Shown: positions 1,248 through 29,308 of the stretch, piece by piece
Layout of the letters: every line of letters starts with the position of its first letter
How positions within the stretch are numbered: position 1 is the first letter of the stretch
From: Bacteroidales bacterium
Lineage (GTDB): Bacteria > Bacteroidota > Bacteroidia > Bacteroidales > UBA932
Direction of reading: 5' to 3'
NCBI GenBank assembly: GCA_024401695.1
Contig: JAKSKN010000005.1
Location: forward strand, 62,001-126,000
DNA: 64,000 bases
The notes under the pieces: generated by a model
Told to the model about the DNA's origin: nothing
Databases searched by the model: none
Seen by the model: the letters and a program-made list of their open reading frames with translations, nothing else
Translations under genes and position numbers: made by a program

Positions 1248-1370
1248 GCGCAACAGCGCTGCTGGAAGTATTATGCGGGCACCGACATTCTGCGACAGCT
1301 CGCTTCGCTCGTTCGTCTCGAAGTCGAACCGTGCCCGCATAATACTTCCAGCAGCAAGCAGTAGCGCCTA
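1245..1370. repeat. Long perfect inverted repeat between convergent hisIE and nifJ
   Basis: Arms 1258-1282 and 1331-1355 are perfectly complementary over 25 bases. A further 7-base pair (1245-1251 with 1364-1370) contains both stop codons, TAG of hisIE and TAG of nifJ. The 48-base centre (1283-1330) is not symmetrical and begins CGACATTC. There is no clear T-run, so it is not a textbook intrinsic terminator. A two-way transcription barrier or a member of a repeated hairpin family are both plausible. Its centre resembles that of the hairpin after metH (29300-29439). Confidence 0.75.
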
Positions 1371-4300
1371 CTTGTCTTTCAGTGAATCGTAGCGCTTGGC
1401 GGCGTCTTCAGATGCCTGGGAGAAGAGTTTTTCGGCGTTTTCAGGGAAGGTGCGCTTCAATGAGTTGTAGCGGACCTCACCGTCGAGGAAATCCTCATAA
1501 GGCATTGTCGGCTCCTTGGAATCGAGCTGGAACGGGTGCTCGAGACGAGGGTCGTAGCGGTAGAGGGTCCAGTAGCCGGCATCTACGGCACGCTTCATCT
1601 CGTCCTGAACTTTCTGCATACCGGCGCAGATGCCGTGGGATGAGCAAGGAGTGTAGGCGATGATCACTGAAGGACCGTCGTATTCCTCTGCTTCCTTGAT
1701 GGCTTTTACAAGCTGGGCAGGGTTGGCACCCATCGCAACCTGCGCTACATATACGTTGCCGTAAGTCATTAATATCGAGCCGATATCCTTCTTCTTGCTC
1801 TTCTTGCCGGATGATGCGAATTTTGCAACGGCGCCAAGCGGAGTCGCCTTGGAGGACTGGCCACCGGTATTGGAGTACATCTCGGTGTCGACGATGAACA
1901 CGTTGACGTTCTCCCCTGTCGATATGACGTGGTCGAGACCGCCGAAGCCGATGTCATAGGCCCAGCCGTCACCTCCGAACATCCAGAACGTCTTCTTGGC
2001 AAGCATATCCTTCATCGCGAGGATTTCAGCGGCCGCATCCGTCCTGTCGGCAGACAGGGCTGAGATCAATTCATCGGAAGCCCTGCGCGAGAGGTCGAAC
2101 GAATCGAAGGCATCGAGCCAGGCGTTGCAGGCATCCTTTACGGCACCGGAAGCGGTTTCGCCGAGGGCGGCCACCTTGATGCGTGCCAATGCCCTCCTCT
2201 GCTTGACGGAGAGGAACATTCCGAGGCAGAGCTCAGCGTTGTTCTCGAAGAGGCTGTTGGTCCAGGCCGGGCCGAAGCCGCGGGAATCAACGGTATAAGG
2301 AATGCCCGGCATTGCGGCGCCCCAGGCCTGTGAGCAGCCCGTGGCGTTCGCCCAGAAGGCGCGTGTGCCGAAGAGCTGGGTGAGCAGTTTTGCGTATGGA
2401 GTCTCCCCGCAGCCTGCGCAGGCGGCAGAGAATTCAAGCAGAGGCTTGCGGAACTGGCTGCCCTTGATGGTGTATGGCTCGAACAGGTCGCCCTTGTCGG
2501 ACAGTCCCAGGCCATATTCGAAAAGTGACCTGCTCTTTTCCGAAAGGCTTGCCGGAACCATCTCCAAGGCTCCTGCAGGGCAACTTTCAGAGCAGCTGCC
2601 GCAGCCGGTGCAGTCGAATTCGGATACTGTCAGAGCGAAATGCAGGCCTGCAGCGCTCTTGCCGTTTGCCGGGATCGTGGCGAAGCCCTCCGGGGCTGCA
2701 GCCCTCTCGGCATCGTCAAGCAGATAAGGACGGATTGCCGCGTGCGGGCAGACAAGGGAGCACTTGTTGCACTGGATGCACTTGTCGGCATTCCAGGAAG
2801 GCACGCGTACAGCGATGCCGCGCTTCTCGTATGCCGTGAGGCCAAGTTCTATGCAGCCGTCAACATTGTTCAGGAATGCGCTGACCGGCAGGTCGTCTCC
2901 CTTCTGACGGTTGATCGGGTTCAGGATATTGCGTACTGCGGCGGGCAGTGCGGATTCGTCAGCGGCAGCCTCGCAGGTAAGCGATGCCCATTCCGCCGGA
3001 ACGGGGACCTCGACGACTTCGGCCGCTCCGGCCTCGATCGCGCTGACGTTCTTTGCGACTACTTCGTCGCCCTTCTTGAAATATGTCCTGCGCGCAGCCT
3101 CTTTCATTGCATCCAGCGCCTCATCCTTGCTGATGAGGCCGGCTACTGCGAAGAATGCGGCCTGCAGTACGGTGTTCGTGTGGCTGCCGAGTCCGAGCCT
3201 CTGCGCGATGGCGGTGGCGTTTATGACAAACAGGCGTGCCTTCTTGAGGGCAAGCGCCTTCTTGACGGAGGCCGGCAGCCAGGCTTCGAGCGCATCGCCG
3301 CTCCTGCTGCAGTTCAGGAGGAACTTCCCTCCTTCCTTGAGCTCGGAAACAATGTCATACTGGCCGATGTAGCTCTGGTTGTGGCAGGCCACGAAATCGG
3401 CACGCTTTACATAATATGAACTCTCCACCGGCCTGCTGCTGAAGCGGAGGTGGGATTTCGTGACGCCGAACGACTTCTTGGCGTCGTATTCGAAATATGC
3501 CTGGCCGTAAATGCCGGAGGTCTCGGAGACGATGTGCACGGTGTTCTTGTTGGCGCCCACGGTGCCGTCGCCGCCGAGTCCCCAGAACTTGCAGCTGAAC
3601 TCATCGCCTGCAGCCTTTTCGAAAGGCAGCGAGGTGAGGGACAGTCCGGTGACATCATCCACTATGCCTATGGTGAAGCCGTTGCGCGGCTTGTCGGATG
3701 CGAGGTTGGCGAATACAGCAAGTATCTGTCCGGGGTCGGTATCCTTTGAGGAAAGTCCGTAACGTCCGCCTACGACGGCGATGTTCCTTCCGCTGTGGCT
3801 GAGAGCGGTGCAGAAATCCTCGTAGAGAGGCTCTCCCGCACTTCCCGGCTCCTTGCACCTGTCAAGCACTGCAACGCGCTTCACGGACTCCGGAAGGGCC
3901 TTGAAAAGGTAATCCGCGCTGAACGGGCGGTACAGGTGGACCTGAAGATAGCCTGTCTTGCTGCCGGAGGCGTTCAGCTGGTCAACGGCCTCGCGTACGG
4001 CGCCGGACACGCTGCCCATCGCGACTATTACGTCAGTCGCGTCGGCGGCGCCGTAATAGTTGAACAGATGATAGTCGCGTCCCGTGATCCTGTTGATCTC
4101 CTGAAGATAGTTCTCCACGATCTCCGGCAATGCATCATAATAGCCGTTGCAGGCCTCGCGTGCCTGGAAGAATACGTCGGGATTCTGGACGGTGCTGCGC
4201 ATCAGAGGGTGCTCCGGGTTCAGGGCACGGTTGCGGAATGAGGCCAGGGCGTCCAGGTCCACGAGGGCGTGGAGCTTTTCGAAATCTATCATCTCGACGG

Positions 4301-4844
4301 TGCTGATTTCGTGGGAAGTGCGGAAGCCGTCGAAGAAATGCATGAACGGGGTGCGTCCCCTGATGGCTGACAGATGAGCCACGCCTGCAAGGTCAATCAC
4401 CTCCTGCACGCTGCCCGAGCACAACTGTGCGAAGCCGGTGTTGCGGCAGCACATTACGTCGGAGTGGTCTCCGAAGATGCTCATTGCGTGTGTCCCGACG
4501 GTACGTGCGGCAACGTGCAGCACTACCGGAAGCCTTTCGCCCGCAATGCGGTGAAGCACCGGGATCATAAGCATAAGTCCCTGGCTGGAAGTATAGCTTG
4601 TCGCGAGTGAACCGGTCTGTGCCGCACCGTGGACGGCGGCTATGGCTCCCGCCTCAGACTGCATCTCGGTGATGGTGACAGGCTGTCCGAACATATTGGT
4701 GCGGCCTTTGGCCGACCAGTCGTCGGTATGCTCCGCCATAGGCGAAGAAGGGGTGATAGGATAAATCGCTGCGACTTCGGTAAATTCGTAAGCAACGTTT
4801 GAAGCGGCTTCATTGCCGTCGAGTGTGATTAATTTCTTTGACAT
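1368..4844 (-). CDS. nifJ: Pyruvate:ferredoxin (flavodoxin) oxidoreductase, single-chain
   Basis: 1158 aa, close to the 1170-1200 usual for homodimeric PFOR. It decarboxylates pyruvate to acetyl-CoA plus CO2, passing electrons to ferredoxin or flavodoxin, the main oxidative route from pyruvate in strict anaerobes. Visible parts in order: the N-terminal POR domain starting at GNEAASNVAYEFTEVAAIYP; a domain II/III region; two bacterial-ferredoxin [4Fe-4S] motifs (CIQCNKCSLVC near residue 685, CTGCGSCSESC near 745); the CAGCGETP cysteine pair near 811 for the proximal cluster; and the TPP motif GGDGWAYDIGFGG near 955 with EMYSNTGGQSS. It starts at an ATG two bases after the stop of the isomerase/acyl-CoA synthetase gene, so it is the last member of the long ilv-leu-met run. 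Confidence 0.97.
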   Translation of the reverse strand: MSKKLITLDGNEAASNVAYEFTEVAAIYPITPSSPMAEHTDDWSAKGRTNMFGQPVTITEMQSEAGAIAAVHGAAQTGSLATSYTSSQGLMLMIPVLHRIAGERLPVVLHVAARTVGTHAMSIFGDHSDVMCCRNTGFAQLCSGSVQEVIDLAGVAHLSAIRGRTPFMHFFDGFRTSHEISTVEMIDFEKLHALVDLDALASFRNRALNPEHPLMRSTVQNPDVFFQAREACNGYYDALPEIVENYLQEINRITGRDYHLFNYYGAADATDVIVAMGSVSGAVREAVDQLNASGSKTGYLQVHLYRPFSADYLFKALPESVKRVAVLDRCKEPGSAGEPLYEDFCTALSHSGRNIAVVGGRYGLSSKDTDPGQILAVFANLASDKPRNGFTIGIVDDVTGLSLTSLPFEKAAGDEFSCKFWGLGGDGTVGANKNTVHIVSETSGIYGQAYFEYDAKKSFGVTKSHLRFSSRPVESSYYVKRADFVACHNQSYIGQYDIVSELKEGGKFLLNCSRSGDALEAWLPASVKKALALKKARLFVINATAIAQRLGLGSHTNTVLQAAFFAVAGLISKDEALDAMKEAARRTYFKKGDEVVAKNVSAIEAGAAEVVEVPVPAEWASLTCEAAADESALPAAVRNILNPINRQKGDDLPVSAFLNNVDGCIELGLTAYEKRGIAVRVPSWNADKCIQCNKCSLVCPHAAIRPYLLDDAERAAAPEGFATIPANGKSAAGLHFALTVSEFDCTGCGSCSESCPAGALEMVPASLSEKSRSLFEYGLGLSDKGDLFEPYTIKGSQFRKPLLEFSAACAGCGETPYAKLLTQLFGTRAFWANATGCSQAWGAAMPGIPYTVDSRGFGPAWTNSLFENNAELCLGMFLSVKQRRALARIKVAALGETASGAVKDACNAWLDAFDSFDLSRRASDELISALSADRTDAAAEILAMKDMLAKKTFWMFGGDGWAYDIGFGGLDHVISTGENVNVFIVDTEMYSNTGGQSSKATPLGAVAKFASSGKKSKKKDIGSILMTYGNVYVAQVAMGANPAQLVKAIKEAEEYDGPSVIIAYTPCSSHGICAGMQKVQDEMKRAVDAGYWTLYRYDPRLEHPFQLDSKEPTMPYEDFLDGEVRYNSLKRTFPENAEKLFSQASEDAAKRYDSLKDK

Positions 4845-19892: not shown

Positions 19893-21722
19893 CTAGTCTT
19901 CAATTATCCTTCTTCCACCCTTGTCCGCGCTGCTGACCATCGATGCGTAGGCCTTGAGGCTCTTCGCGACCGGACGCTGGCGGAAAGGAGGGGTGAATGC
20001 CTTCCTGCCCCGTGCAAGCTCCTCAGCCCTGCGGACCTCAAGCTCTTCGTCGCTCAGATGGACGTTTATGCTGCGTGAAGGGATGTCAATCTCGATGATG
20101 TCTCCGTCGCGGAGCAGGCCGATATTGCCACCTGCGGCCGCTTCCGGGGATATGTGGCCGATACTGAGGCCCGATGTACCACCGCTGAAGCGGCCGTCGG
20201 TGATGAGGGCGCACTCCTTTCCGAGGTGCATTGACTTGATGTAGGATGTAGGGTAAAGCATTTCCTGCATTCCAGGGCCGCCCTTGGGGCCTTCGTAGTT
20301 GATCACAACGCAGTCGCCTTTCTTGACCTTGCCACCGAGTATGCCGTCAACGGCTGATTCCTGGGAATCGAACACCTTTGCCGGGCCGCAGAAATGCCAG
20401 AGGCTTTCATCGACGCCCGCGGTCTTGATGACGCAGCCGTCAGCGGCTATGTTGCCGAAAAGGACTCCGAGTCCGCCGTCCTTCGTGTACGCGTGCTCCA
20501 GGCTGCGGATGCATCCGTTTTCGCGGTCGGTGTCGAAGCTTTCCCATTTCGTATCCTGCGATGCCATCAGAGTGGTCCTGCGGCCGGCAGGAGCGGCTGA
20601 ATAGATTGCCTTCGCCTCCTCTCCGGCATCGTTCCCGGTGATGTCGAATTTGTCCAGCGCCTCTCCGAGGGTCATACCATCGACGCGGCCGACGCTGCGG
20701 TCGACGAGACCGGCCTTGGCGAGTTCGTTCATTATGCCGAACACACCGCCTGCGCGGCCGACATCCTGGATGTGATATTTCTGTGTGTTCGGTGCGACCT
20801 TGCAGATGCAAGGGACCTTGCGTGAGAGCTTGTCGATGTCTTCCATCACGAAGTCGACCTCGGCTTCGCCGGCGACTGCGAGGAGATGGAGGACGGTATT
20901 TGACGAACCGCCCATTGCTATGTCCATTGTCATTGCGTTAAGGAACGCCTGACGTGTGGCAATGCTGCGCGGGAGTACGGAATCGTCGTCGTTGTCGTAG
21001 TACTTGTGGGTGTTCTCAACGATCTGGCGGGCTGCCTTGAGCAGAAGCTCCTTGCGGAGAACGTGGGTCGCAAGGACAGTGCCATTGCCCGGAAGGGCAA
21101 GGCCTATCGCCTCAGTGAGACAGTTCATCGAATTGGCGGTGAACATACCGGAACAGCTGCCGCAGGTAGGACAGGCGCAGTTTTCGATCTGGTCCACGTC
21201 CTTGTCGCTGACTGATGGGTCGGCAGACTTAACCATCACGTCTATCAGGTCGAGACGTGCGGCACCGAGGACACCGGCTTCCATAGGACCGCCGGATACG
21301 AAGATAGTCGGGATGTTGAGCCTCATCGCGGCGATGAGCATACCCGGCGTGATCTTGTCGCAATTGCTGATGCACACGAGGGCGTCTGCCTTGTGGGCGT
21401 TGACCATATACTCGACGCTGTCTGCTATGATGTCGCGTGACGGGAGCGAATAGAGCATTCCGTCGTGTCCCATTGCAATCCCATCATCTATCGCTATGGT
21501 GTCGAACTCGGCGGCGAAACATCCGAGACGCTCGATCTCCTCTTTCACGATCTGAGCTGCGTCGTGCAGATGGACGTGGCCCGGAACAAACTGAGTGAAT
21601 GAATTCGCTATCGCGATGACGGGCTTTCCGAACTGTTCTCTTTTCATCCCGTTGGCCAGCCAGAGAGACCTGGCGCCGGCCATTCTTCTACCTTCAAAGG
21701 TAACGCTGCTACGTAACTTCAT
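19893..21722 (-). CDS. ilvD: Dihydroxy-acid dehydratase
   Basis: 609 aa, standard for IlvD/Edd family Fe-S dehydratases; it makes 2-oxo acids for valine and isoleucine. Cluster and metal cysteines appear in [10 protein letters not shown] and in [21 protein letters not shown]-terminal [17 protein letters not shown] is the family signature. It is the first gene of the 20-kb leftward run, 60 bases from a strong promoter match at 21783-21814. An AGGAGG lies 18 bases before the ATG, too far for an ordinary Shine-Dalgarno. Confidence 0.97.
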
Positions 21723-25696: not shown

Positions 25697-28600
25697 ATGG
25701 CTCTGGTACTTGATGGTGGGATGGGCACAATGCTGCAGCGCGGCTTCACTGAGGAGCAGGTGCTTCGTATGTATGTTGAAGCCGGTGCTGACATAATCAC
25801 CACCAACACCTTCACTGCCAACAGAATAAGTCAGGCTGCCACGGGTCTTGCCGACAAGGCGGCGCAGATGGCGTTCGAGGGTGCACGCACAGCCCGGAAG
25901 GTGGCCGATGCCGCACCGCGGAAGGTGCTTGTCGCCGGCAGCGTGGGCCCTACCGGAAAGTCCCTGACGATGGCTTCCGACGCCGATGATCCCGGGTTCC
26001 GTGAATATTCCTTTGATGAGATGGCTGCGGCTTTCGAGGAGCAGGTCTCTGCTCTTCTCAGGGGCGGCGCCGACATCATCCTTCTTGAGACCTGCTTTGA
26101 CGCATTGAATGCCAAGGCGCTCATCTATGCATTGGAGAAGCTGGGCAATCCGTGTCCGCTCTATATTTCCGCGACGGTCAGCGACCGCAGCGGGCGTACC
26201 CTTACGGGACAGACCCTGGAAGCGTTCTACCGCTCTGTCTCGCATGCGAAGACTTTGGCTGCGTTCGGCATCAACTGTGCGCTTGGCGCTGCTGCAATGG
26301 CTCCGCTCGTGCGTGAAATCGCGTCTTTCAGTTCTCATCCGGTGATTTTCTATCCGAATGCGGGTGTGCCTGATGAGTTTGGCAATTATAATGATACTCC
26401 TGAGGAGATGGCGGAGGTGATCGGAGGGCTGGTGCGTGATGGGTATGTGCAGATTGCGGGTGGTTGTTGTGGCACGACGCCGGAGCACATAAGGGCGATA
26501 GCTCAGGTGGTATATTCTTGCGGCCTTGGTGCTTCAAGCCCTTGCGGCCTTGGTGCTTCTGCGACAGGTTCTGCCTGCTCCGCTAAAGCAAGGGAAAACG
26601 CTACACAGGCAGAACTGTCGCATCAGCAGTCGGCCGCAAGGAAAAACGCTACACAAAGTGGACAGTCGGATTCTCAGTCGGCCGCAAGGAAAAACGCTAC
26701 ACAGGCAGAACTGTCGCGTCGGCAGTCGGGCGACAGCCTGTATGTGTCGGGATTGGAGTCGGTGGAGATTTCGAGGGCGAGGAATTTTATGAATGTCGGT
26801 GAAAGGACTAATGTTGCGGGGTCGAAGAAGTTTGCGCGTCTGGTGGCGGAGGATAACTGGGAGGAGGCCTTGCGCATTGCTGAGGCTCAGATCGAAGGGG
26901 GCGCTGATGTGATCGATATCAATATGGACGACCCTATGGTCGATTCGAAGGAGAAGATGCGGACCTTCCTTCGACATATCGCCGGCGAACCGGCTATTGC
27001 GAAGGCGGCCCTTATGATAGATTCGTCGCACTGGGAGACTGTCCTCGAGGGGCTTAAGAATGCTCAGGGAAAGTGCATCGTGAATTCGATATCCCTGAAG
27101 GATGGCCGGGGTGAGTTCCTGCGCAAGGCGCTTGAAATACGTCGGCTTGGCGGCGCTATGGTCGTAATGGCCTTTGACGAGGAGGGACAGGCGGTTTCGT
27201 TTGACCGGAAGGTTGCGATCTGCAAGCGCAGCTATGACCTTCTGACAGCTGCAGGAGTGCCGTCAACCGATATTATCTTTGACTGCAACATCCTGTCGAT
27301 AGGTACGGGGATTGCGGAACACGCTCGTTTCGGCGTTGATTTCATCGAAGCTGTACGCTGGATCAAGGCGAATCTTCCGGGGGTGAAGACTTCCGGAGGT
27401 GTGTCGAATCTTTCTTTTGCCTTCCGCGGCAATAATGTGGTGCGTGAGGCGATGCATTCGGCGTTTTTGTATCATGCGATTCGTGCGGGACTTGATATGG
27501 CTATCGTGAATCCGCAGATGATTCAGATTTATGATGAGATTGAGCCGGAGTTGCGGAAGCGTGTGGAGGATGTGATTTTTGACAGCGACGCTGAGGCGAC
27601 TTCTCGCCTCGTTGAATACGCGTCAAACCCTTACGGCCTTGGTGAGAATCCGACTGGTCCACTTTGCTCCGCTAAAGCAAGGGAAAACGCTACACAAAGT
27701 GGACAGTCGGATTCTCAGTCGGCCGCAGGGGAAAACGCTCCTTTTTCAGTCGCCCTTGGTGCCGACGCGACAGGTTCTACCTGTTCCGCTAAAGCAAGGG
27801 AAAACGCTACACAGGCAGAACTGTCGCGTCGGCAGTCGGGCGAGTCGGGGCTGGATCCGATTGAGAGACTGACGGGGGCGGTGGTGAAGGGTGTTTCTGC
27901 GGGGATTGAGGAGAGTGCGATGGGGGCGTATGGCGTTTTGAAATCGGCTGTGGAAGTGATTGAGGGGCCGTTGATGAAGGGTATGGAGAAGGTTGGGGAG
28001 CTGTTTGCCGCAGGCAGGATGTTTTTGCCGCAGGTGGTGAAGTCTGCCAAGGTCATGAGGGAGGCGGTTGCCGTGCTTCAGCCGTATATGGGTGATGCAT
28101 CGGAGGGTTCCGGCAGGCCGGTGTTTGTGATTGCGACGGTCCAGGGGGACGTTCATGATATTGGTAAGAATATCACTGCGATCGTGCTGCAGTGCAGCGG
28201 TTTTGAGGTGGTTGACCTTGGCGTGATGGTGCCTTGTGCCGATATACTTGACAAGGCTGTGGAGGTTGGTGCGGTGGCTGTCGGCGTGAGCGGTCTGATA
28301 ACTCCGTCCCTCAGCAGGATGGAGGAGATATGTTCGGAGATGTCGGCAAGGGGGATGGACATTCCTTTGTTCGTCGGCGGAGCAGCTGCTTCGGCGGTTC
28401 ATACCGCTGTCAGGCTATCGCCTCTATATCCTAATGTACACTATGGTGCGGATGCTTCTGCTACGGCAGTGATGGCAAAGAAGTATCTTATTGATAAAGA
28501 ATCATTTATTGCTGACGAGCTGAAGGAGCGCGAGAAGTTGATTGCGCTTCGCTCTTCAGCGGTCGCCAAGCCTGTGAAACCGGTCGTAACCGATGGATTC

Positions 28601-29308
28601 CCAACTACGTCATTCAAGGACATTCCTTTCTGCGAGATGCCTGCAGAGACATTCATCGAGCACTTTGACTGGAGGATGTTCTTTGCGGTCTGCGGCGTGA
28701 AATGCGAGCATTGCGAAGGCGCCGGACTACGTCGGGAGGCTCAGACTTTCCTTGAAACGGCCGGACTGAAGGTCCGTCTTGCGCTACGCTTCTTTGACGC
28801 GCATCGCGAAGACGACGACATCGTCACTCCGGTTTTCCGCCTGCCTATGCTTCGCGACGGGGTCTGCCTGGCCGACTACTTCCCTGCCTCGGGAAGCAGT
28901 CAGCTGGGGCTTTTTGCCGCAACAGTCGTGCAGCCGACTCCGTCCGATGACCTTGTTGCCCACGCAGTGCGCGTGACACTTGCCGAGGCGGCGTCGGAAT
29001 GGATAGGAGCACAGCTTGACACAAAGCATATCCGCCCCGGGATCGGATACGCCTGCTGCCCGGACCACAGCCTCAAGAGAGACGTCCTGGCCCTGCTCCC
29101 GTCCGAATTGGGGATAACCCTGACTGAATCCTGTGCAATGATACCGGAGGCCAGCGTTTGCGGTCTGGTAATAGCCCATCCGCTGGCTTCCTATAATGAT
29201 ATACGTCACGTGTCGGATGCCGACCTTGATGCCTATGCCGCCCGTCGTGGGATGTCCGAAAGCGAGAAAATGCTTTTCCTCGGGCATTTAGTCATTCTTA
29301 AAAAATAA
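25697..29308 (+). CDS. metH: Cobalamin-dependent methionine synthase, full-length, with repeat-filled linkers
   Basis: 1203 aa, all four MetH modules. Homocysteine-binding barrel about 1-272 (LDGGMGTMLQRGF; zinc cysteines in FGINCALG and GGCCGTTPEH). Pterin-binding barrel about 355-640 (NVGERTNVAGSKKF, DINMDDPMVDSKE). B12 cap about 717-800 and cobalamin domain with the axial-His motif GDVHDIGKN near 816. AdoMet activation domain about 935-1203, with RPGIGYACCPDHS. Residues about 273-349 and 644-716, the linkers after the first and second modules, are low-complexity segments rich in Ala, Ser, Gln and Asn, built from a 16-residue unit such as SAARKNATQSGQSDSQ; the DNA there forms palindromes. 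Codons in 26330-28450 look more G/T-ended than in the rest of the gene. It transfers methyl from 5-methyl-THF to homocysteine in the cytosol. Confidence 0.96.
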   Translation: MALVLDGGMGTMLQRGFTEEQVLRMYVEAGADIITTNTFTANRISQAATGLADKAAQMAFEGARTARKVADAAPRKVLVAGSVGPTGKSLTMASDADDPGFREYSFDEMAAAFEEQVSALLRGGADIILLETCFDALNAKALIYALEKLGNPCPLYISATVSDRSGRTLTGQTLEAFYRSVSHAKTLAAFGINCALGAAAMAPLVREIASFSSHPVIFYPNAGVPDEFGNYNDTPEEMAEVIGGLVRDGYVQIAGGCCGTTPEHIRAIAQVVYSCGLGASSPCGLGASATGSACSAKARENATQAELSHQQSAARKNATQSGQSDSQSAARKNATQAELSRRQSGDSLYVSGLESVEISRARNFMNVGERTNVAGSKKFARLVAEDNWEEALRIAEAQIEGGADVIDINMDDPMVDSKEKMRTFLRHIAGEPAIAKAALMIDSSHWETVLEGLKNAQGKCIVNSISLKDGRGEFLRKALEIRRLGGAMVVMAFDEEGQAVSFDRKVAICKRSYDLLTAAGVPSTDIIFDCNILSIGTGIAEHARFGVDFIEAVRWIKANLPGVKTSGGVSNLSFAFRGNNVVREAMHSAFLYHAIRAGLDMAIVNPQMIQIYDEIEPELRKRVEDVIFDSDAEATSRLVEYASNPYGLGENPTGPLCSAKARENATQSGQSDSQSAAGENAPFSVALGADATGSTCSAKARENATQAELSRRQSGESGLDPIERLTGAVVKGVSAGIEESAMGAYGVLKSAVEVIEGPLMKGMEKVGELFAAGRMFLPQVVKSAKVMREAVAVLQPYMGDASEGSGRPVFVIATVQGDVHDIGKNITAIVLQCSGFEVVDLGVMVPCADILDKAVEVGAVAVGVSGLITPSLSRMEEICSEMSARGMDIPLFVGGAAASAVHTAVRLSPLYPNVHYGADASATAVMAKKYLIDKESFIADELKEREKLIALRSSAVAKPVKPVVTDGFPTTSFKDIPFCEMPAETFIEHFDWRMFFAVCGVKCEHCEGAGLRREAQTFLETAGLKVRLALRFFDAHREDDDIVTPVFRLPMLRDGVCLADYFPASGSSQLGLFAATVVQPTPSDDLVAHAVRVTLAEAASEWIGAQLDTKHIRPGIGYACCPDHSLKRDVLALLPSELGITLTESCAMIPEASVCGLVIAHPLASYNDIRHVSDADLDAYAARRGMSESEKMLFLGHLVILKK
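26517..26745 (+). repeat. In-frame repeat array in metH linker 1
   Basis: A 24-base tandem duplication (26517-26535 repeated at 26541-26559) is followed by three copies of a ~48-base unit, each containing AAAACGCTACA at 26597-26607, 26643-26653 and 26691-26701. The unit is in frame and gives a 16-residue protein period. The first copy forms a complete hairpin; the second and third look like half-elements lacking the left arm. The right arms alternate between two versions (GGCAGAACTGTCGC and AAGTGGACAGTCGG). Confidence 0.85.
26561..26621 (+). repeat. Palindromic element copy 1 inside metH
   Basis: Left arm 26561-26577 and right arm 26606-26621 pair over 16 bases with one unpaired G in the left arm, ten pairs from the loop. 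The 28-base loop (26578-26605) contains GCTAAAGCAAGGGAAAACGC and is the same in copies 2 and 3. Confidence 0.8.
27644..27716 (+). repeat. Palindromic element copy 2 inside metH
   Basis: Left arm 27644-27666 and right arm 27695-27716 pair over 22 bases, perfectly except for one bulged G ten pairs from the loop, as in copy 1. Five of the ten loop-proximal pairs differ from copy 1, each with a matching change on the other arm. The 28-base loop (27667-27694) is identical to copy 1. Confidence 0.82.
27760..27834 (+). repeat. Palindromic element copy 3 inside metH
   Basis: Left arm 27760-27783 and right arm 27812-27834 pair over 23 bases with one mismatch and the same bulged G position. The 28-base loop 27784-27811 differs from copies 1 and 2 only at its first base. 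Its arms are a longer version of copy 1. Confidence 0.82.

Follow-up and report, generated by a model that had tools for sequence, protein, structure and literature searches.

In-frame palindromic elements between the domains of MetH in a Bacteroidales bacterium, and related elements in its genus with arms probably made by template switching

The metH gene in the 64,000 nt of Bacteroidales DNA analysed here (the window) carries three palindromic elements between the domains that it encodes, and further genomes of the genus carry elements with the same core, or with a different one, in many other genes. These are probably in-frame palindromic elements that work in the manner of the Rickettsia palindromic elements (RPE), membership of that group apart, with arms made by template switching. 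The original prediction had drawn attention to covarying hairpins in the metH linkers; that observation was confirmed, and the interpretation placed on it was partly supported.

The metH gene (25697..29308, + strand) predicts a cobalamin-dependent methionine synthase that matches TIGR02082 with 1016.5 bits (cut-off 1010.85) and aligns with solved MetH chains. Element C1 (26540..26641), a segment of 102 nt or 34 codons, is in linker 1, between the first and second domains, and elements C2 (27629..27730) and C3 (27746..27847), also 102 nt each, are in linker 2, between the second and third domains. All three are on the + strand and start in codon phase 0 of metH. Each consists, in order, of an outer arm, TTGG, a 13-nt arm, an unpaired G, a 10-nt arm and a 28-nt loop, followed by a 10-nt arm, a 13-nt arm, GTC and an outer arm. 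The apical loop, which is the conserved core (26578..26605 in C1, 27667-27694 in C2 and 27784-27811 in C3), is identical in C1 and C2 with one change in C3, and the bulged G (26567, 27656 and 27773) is exactly ten pairs from the loop in each copy, both as originally described. C1 and C2 do differ in 5 of the 10 loop-near positions, and both sets pair fully. The outer part of the elements, made up of the TTGG/GTC internal loop and a second helix, was absent from the earlier description. The claim that the frame is kept and that about 70 residues are added by each element holds for the frame but not for the length, as the linkers comprise 71 and 76 residues in the window MetH versus 12 and 17 in the best solved MetH chain, and hence about 59 residues were added per linker. 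The inserts fall between domains.

Over 29 named pairs of C1, C2 and C3, 95.4% of cells pair and 13 pairs are changed on both sides. This covariation was matched by none of 500 shuffles, and pairing in slid versions was 26-41%. Folding z-scores for the metH elements are -6.8 to -8.9, on both strands. With only three sequences, the covariation is strong for the stem and silent on its cause.

Linker 1 also includes fragments. A duplicated 5′ element end is located directly upstream of C1 (26517..26539, + strand; copies 26517-26535 and 26541-26559), and two collapsed 3′ halves, one of type C2 and one of type C3, are found at 26636..26733 (+ strand), sharing 47 of 48 and 49 of 50 positions with the 3′ halves of C2 and C3, respectively. 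These halves may be read as deletion products between GCARGGRAAAACGCT repeats. Linker 1 lacks 69 nt, in frame, that are present in linker 2, and the gap falls between two direct repeats. The arrangement would be explained by exchange of material between the two metH linkers and subsequent deletion.

No element was detected outside metH in this genome, which is 97% complete, whether by a loop pattern allowing 3 mismatches, by BLAST with linker 1 or by a covariance model for which 20 of 63 candidates were scored. The remaining BLAST matches to linker 1 are weak (E 0.087 or more), and one 30-nt piece of the core of the second family described below was found (E 0.001). A palindrome of similar build, with 25-bp perfect arms and a 48-nt loop (1258..1355, no strand assigned), lies in the window between the ends of convergent ORFs (633-1247, + strand, and 1368-4844, - strand). 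A second genomic copy of this palindrome shares 74 bases covering the loop and inner stem at 95% identity, and has different outer arms. Imperfect inverted repeats were located by a repeat finder at 20129-20202 and 3996-4055, with arms of 81% and 82%. No close relative of this genome was present among the 151 searched, where the best near-full MetH match was 57% identical, and for this reason the window copies show neither an empty site nor a host-derived arm.

A 16-mer from the loop, allowing one mismatch, was found among 60 relatives only in this genome and once in another family of the order. The covariance model, run with strict filters and at most 20 candidates scored per genome, gave 8 weaker matches in four further genomes among 200 of the genus. 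A core motif drawn from those hits (one mismatch allowed) has 72 matches, which fall in 17 of 400 genomes of the genus (16 of 399 when this genome is left out), a count that is not independent of the covariance-model hits because of its origin; the reversed control pattern, which is independent, has 3. For the 69 matches outside this genome, 60 loci were fetched and 62 copies read, 45 of subtype A and 17 of subtype B. The stem score is at least 10 in 57 of the 62 and under 10 in the other 5.

Subtype A copies are mostly outside long ORFs, with no spanning ORF of 200 residues in 36 of 45, and a number of them have, by eye, A-runs before the stem and T-runs after it, like two-way terminators. 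The 17 subtype B copies come from two sister genomes, and 16 are within ORFs of at least 200 residues. Genes with B copies in frame include cysS, purL, rsmH, truB, hisD-hisC, murG-murC and one for a U32 peptidase, though the two sisters do not share all of these; two of the B ORFs searched against NCBIfam had no match. All 17 B copies use one frame for sense and one for antisense, where the longest ORF gives these main frames in 14 and three copies (L149, L152 and L153) were reassigned to the frame of their orthologs. The window copies share the B sense frame. Restriction to inter-domain linkers, as first claimed, fits this genome by pattern, BLAST and covariance model, but not of its relatives, where many other genes are occupied. 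The B-type core was found in 12 stretches from named genomes, 7 on contigs of the rumen-type Bacteroidales assemblies RUG345 and RUG14513, 1 in another Bacteroidales assembly and 4 in other phyla; about 4 would be expected by chance on our own rough estimate.

Two B elements lie between both domains of fused frames, murG-murC (L144, 389-3049) and hisD-hisC (L148, 535-3012), which look as if two genes had been bridged by an in-frame element. At the cysS site, genomes G098 (L204) and G087 (L205) carry different palindromes at the same position, and the one in G098 has, by eye, arms of ∼17 bp and an inverted core-like piece.

Both metH linkers of four other species carry a different palindrome, or remnants of it, designated family C. 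Its core is dispersed, with 26, 33, 25 and 12 matches in the four genomes (E 0.001, pieces included). Long ORFs enclose 26 of the 28 copies read, 15 in sense and 11 in antisense orientation and with one frame for each; the counts leave out L064, for which the copy already taken for L059 had been picked, as well as L071 and L084, which no long ORF spans. Yet 25 of the 26 cores have a second sense frame free of stops, and 23 have a second antisense frame. Among the hosts are metH, fmt, rsmF, trmO, ispH, ispE, citrate lyase ligase-citG and the genes for cardiolipin synthase, an aldehyde dehydrogenase, chorismate synthase, an FtsK protein (L082) and, within its linker, a pyruvate dehydrogenase E2. 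Orthologs without the element occur in other species of the genus for ispH, citG, aldehyde dehydrogenase, ispE, trmO, rsmF and fmt, and half-deleted forms exist of ispH and ispE. The RPE-like insertion in frame that had been proposed is borne out here, since related elements are present or absent at fixed sites in conserved enzymes. The original prediction would have been contradicted by a loop confined to metH together with gradual differences between the metH linkers of relatives; the loop was indeed found nowhere else in this genome, but the relatives differ by insertions.

The closest family C cores can be in different genes. The core in metH linker 2 of G066 is identical to that in rsmF of G114 (1.00), and for the core in metH linker 2 of G017 the nearest is that in citG of the same genome (0.97). 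The means nevertheless differ little, at 0.884 within genomes (84 pairs), 0.894 for the same gene between genomes (10 pairs) and 0.863 for all between-genome pairs (294). Movement or conversion after the species split is therefore likely for some copies, and no more than possible for most.

Other repeats occur at the same kind of site. Linker 2 of the G064 metH (L037) has two copies of a further hairpin repeat that, in a search of 4 genomes, was seen nowhere but in this metH. In linker 1 of metH in G032 (L034) and G021 (L058), a TCCGGGAATA-type repeat gives rise to recurring peptides of the form SGN...F(T/P)D. The peptides PEEHFPxVxCDEG and GRVHSRxAAAEYGL are encoded by repeats at insertion sites in G098 rsmF (L259) and a G017 lutA-like gene (L275), the second also in an FtsK-like ORF (L088), suggesting further families that share hot spots.

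Were the arms passed on whole with the element, each 5′ arm would be expected to pair with every 3′ arm of the same family. Mean pairing of a copy's own arms versus those of other copies is 16.0 versus 5.1 for A (45 copies), 14.0 versus 6.2 for B (17) and 14.3 versus 4.7 for C (28). For 34 of 45 A, 12 of 17 B and 26 of 28 C copies (7 of 10 for non-redundant B), no other arm pairs better than the own one. The own arm is strictly best in 28, 5 and 24 copies, respectively, in 6 of 10 for non-redundant B and in 11 of 11 for G021 alone, though these strict counts are lowered by the orthologs in the sets. Stem parts near the loop are common to many A and B copies, while the outer parts differ.

In three genes, alignment with other species suggests that one arm is coding sequence of the host, of which the other arm is an inverted copy. 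The 5′ arm of the ispE element matches the empty gene of another species at 18 of 21 positions, and an inverted copy of this arm forms the end of the 111-nt insert. This is the only sharp insert junction, and CCCCG is present on both sides of the insert, which may be microhomology rather than a target site duplication, so that the empty gene could be a deletion product; a partial deletion form is present in another species. In the aldehyde dehydrogenase gene, 19 of 29 positions of the 3′ flank agree with host codons, and the 5′ arm repeats this flank in inverted form at 16 of 17 positions. The 3′ arm in metH linker 2 of G017 continues into codons of the host that are also present in G073 and G114; only about seven arm bases are clearly host, and the outer 5′ arm is absent from G073 and G114.

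Cores can also be turned round. In rsmH the core is flipped between the sister genomes (14 of 50 positions identical directly, 35 of 35 when reversed), with the flanks kept and the arms differing in one base. Core orientation also differs in fmt and an FtsK-like gene, where the arms differ too. In L139/L186, which have 86% identical flanks, the outer part of both arms differs.

Host-like arms, arms that fit their own partner and the core flip in rsmH all fit template switching during replication. In the process as we picture it, a hairpin-forming core, once inside a gene, would cause the replication fork to switch template and to copy one flank as its reverse complement onto the opposite side of the core. 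Repeated switching could build and renew the arms from host sequence and occasionally turn the core round. Copies would persist where the frame is kept, stops are avoided and the linker or loop is tolerant, and would be lost by deletion between short direct repeats. The accessible portions of two studies describe template switches that copy a stretch in reverse complement, thereby creating or perfecting stems, extending arms and inverting loops or spacers (PMC8794818, PMC8604942). The inversions reported in these portions are small, with 2-5 substitutions in yeast spacers and loops of up to 8 nt in rRNA (PMC8794818, PMC8604942), and since at least 32 nt are turned here, recombination is possible for the core flips. 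The short published inversions, the change in both arms of L139/L186 and the deletion caveat for ispE were counted against template switching, as were, for the reading as a whole, the loop-near stem parts common to many copies, the copies whose own arms are not the best, the position of most A copies outside long ORFs and the five low stem scores.

A further step, which we offer tentatively and hold to be possible but doubtful, is that this is selfish in-frame DNA that needs no transposase. The core would spread by ectopic template switching, arms would be built from the target gene, and new frame-kept protein segments would result, with genes bridged into fusions such as murG-murC and hisD-hisC.

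The elements could instead be non-autonomous transposons (MITE or REP type) that depend on a transposase supplied in trans, for example a Y1 (REP-associated) one, and whose arms are the terminal repeats. The many dispersed copies, the near identity of their cores (reaching 1.00 for some in different genes) and the shared loop-near stem parts of A and B agree with this. However, shared terminal inverted repeats were not seen at the outer ends, which are mostly different among copies, and sharing is partial and limited to inner stem parts. No matches were found in viral contigs for the three patterns tried, in plasmids for family C or in phages for C1. The transposase acting in trans that had been suggested as a check was represented by Y1 matches (E 0.001) in 11 of the 12 genomes with elements, but also in 7 of 10 genomes judged, by the A/B core only, to be without elements. 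On these counts Y1 is not a discriminating feature, nor a good candidate for the mover, and transposition of this kind is improbable.

Selection on structure is, by a small margin, less probable again. Under this explanation the hairpin acts in the mRNA, through pausing between domains during folding or through stability, and is kept by compensatory mutations. The loop, the TTGG/GTC internal loop and the bulge are indeed conserved while the arms covary. Ortholog pairs bear on this directly: 20 were compared and the 12 with both flanks used, several others not being orthologs. Compensated double changes were found in L139/L186 (5, with 3 broken single changes), L171/L181 (3, the same as in L171/L190) and L142/L157 (1). 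The 7 pairs with both flanks at 88% identity or more (L138/L158, L143/L156, L144/L150, L146/L152, L148/L153, L163/L168 and L181/L190) have no double-sided and 5 single-sided stem changes, and 4 of these 5 still pair. Against a role in mRNA, the elements are absent from many orthologs, occur in both orientations and also outside genes, and can have the core flipped with little else changed; Rfam has no match in the window at the gathering score or in 8 loci at E 0.1. Constraint to keep the frame and avoid stops is clear, and there may be some on the hairpin itself. The earlier argument that covariation implies a maintained structure was not upheld, as outer arms are copy-specific, one of them can be host sequence and the closest 7 pairs lack double-sided changes. 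Because the arms look to have been made by template switching, covariation alone is no proof of selection on structure. Strong stem covariation is ordinarily taken to mark a functional RNA, yet mutation alone can produce it.

Purely local slippage or duplication in disordered metH linkers, with no mobile element involved, would account for the confinement of all copies found in this genome to metH and for the collapsed copies of linker 2 material in linker 1, but is very unlikely given the same loop core on other stems in other genes of relatives. An assembly or chimera artefact, conceivable for palindromes in draft genomes of many contigs, can be set aside almost entirely, as the frame is kept in all 26 genic family C copies read and locus and arms agree between sister assemblies.

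In-frame elements with template-switched arms, the reading that we prefer, differ in several respects from known systems. REP and MITE elements have conserved stems or termini. In the present elements it is the core and the stem next to the loop that are conserved, while the outer arms vary, and most B and C copies lie within genes. In the available text of two sources, REP and MITE elements are short, dispersed, non-autonomous hairpins with many copies (PMC3733652, PMC10969869). Nematomorph mitochondria have perfect inverted repeats inside translated genes, both arms of which, in the accessible part of the report, encode conserved protein (PMC6649704); the present inserts, with their repeated core, differ in adding sequence in variable linkers. 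The likeness to template-switch (quasipalindrome) mutations is that single events create or perfect stems, extend arms and invert spacers. The published cases, in the excerpts available, concern single existing repeats with small spacers (PMC8794818, PMC8604942), whereas dispersed families, a conserved core and larger spacers are found here.

A literature search by title and start of abstract, mostly outside subscription journals, found no description of such elements in Bacteroidales. The best-known palindromic elements inserted in frame are those of Rickettsia and Wolbachia, and we know of no explanation for their spread in these bacteria. With several families in one species-rich genus, and with individual sites that are empty, occupied, flipped or half-deleted depending on the species, the birth and decay of such elements become testable. 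According to the available sections of two papers, RPE and Wolbachia palindromic elements are palindromes of ∼100-150 bp in protein genes that leave the frame unbroken, are also intergenic and are tolerated in conserved enzymes (PMC2229807, PMC3767692). The review among these lists a 12-bp terminal inverted repeat for RPE, and its references name coding palindromic repeats in an archaeon (PMC2229807). The terminal sequences of the present elements are mostly not shared between copies, and outer arms mostly fit only their own partner. Dispersal over several genes of one genome is seen in the relatives, and in this genome only metH is occupied. The likeness to RPE is in palindrome size, 102 nt in the window being within the RPE range, and in insertion in frame with empty orthologs, as seen for family C; the window copies show the frame only. 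The differences, by description rather than by homology, are that the present elements belong to another phylum, have outer arms that are copy-specific or host-like, and have cores that flip. The elements are accordingly classed as working like RPE and not as RPE.
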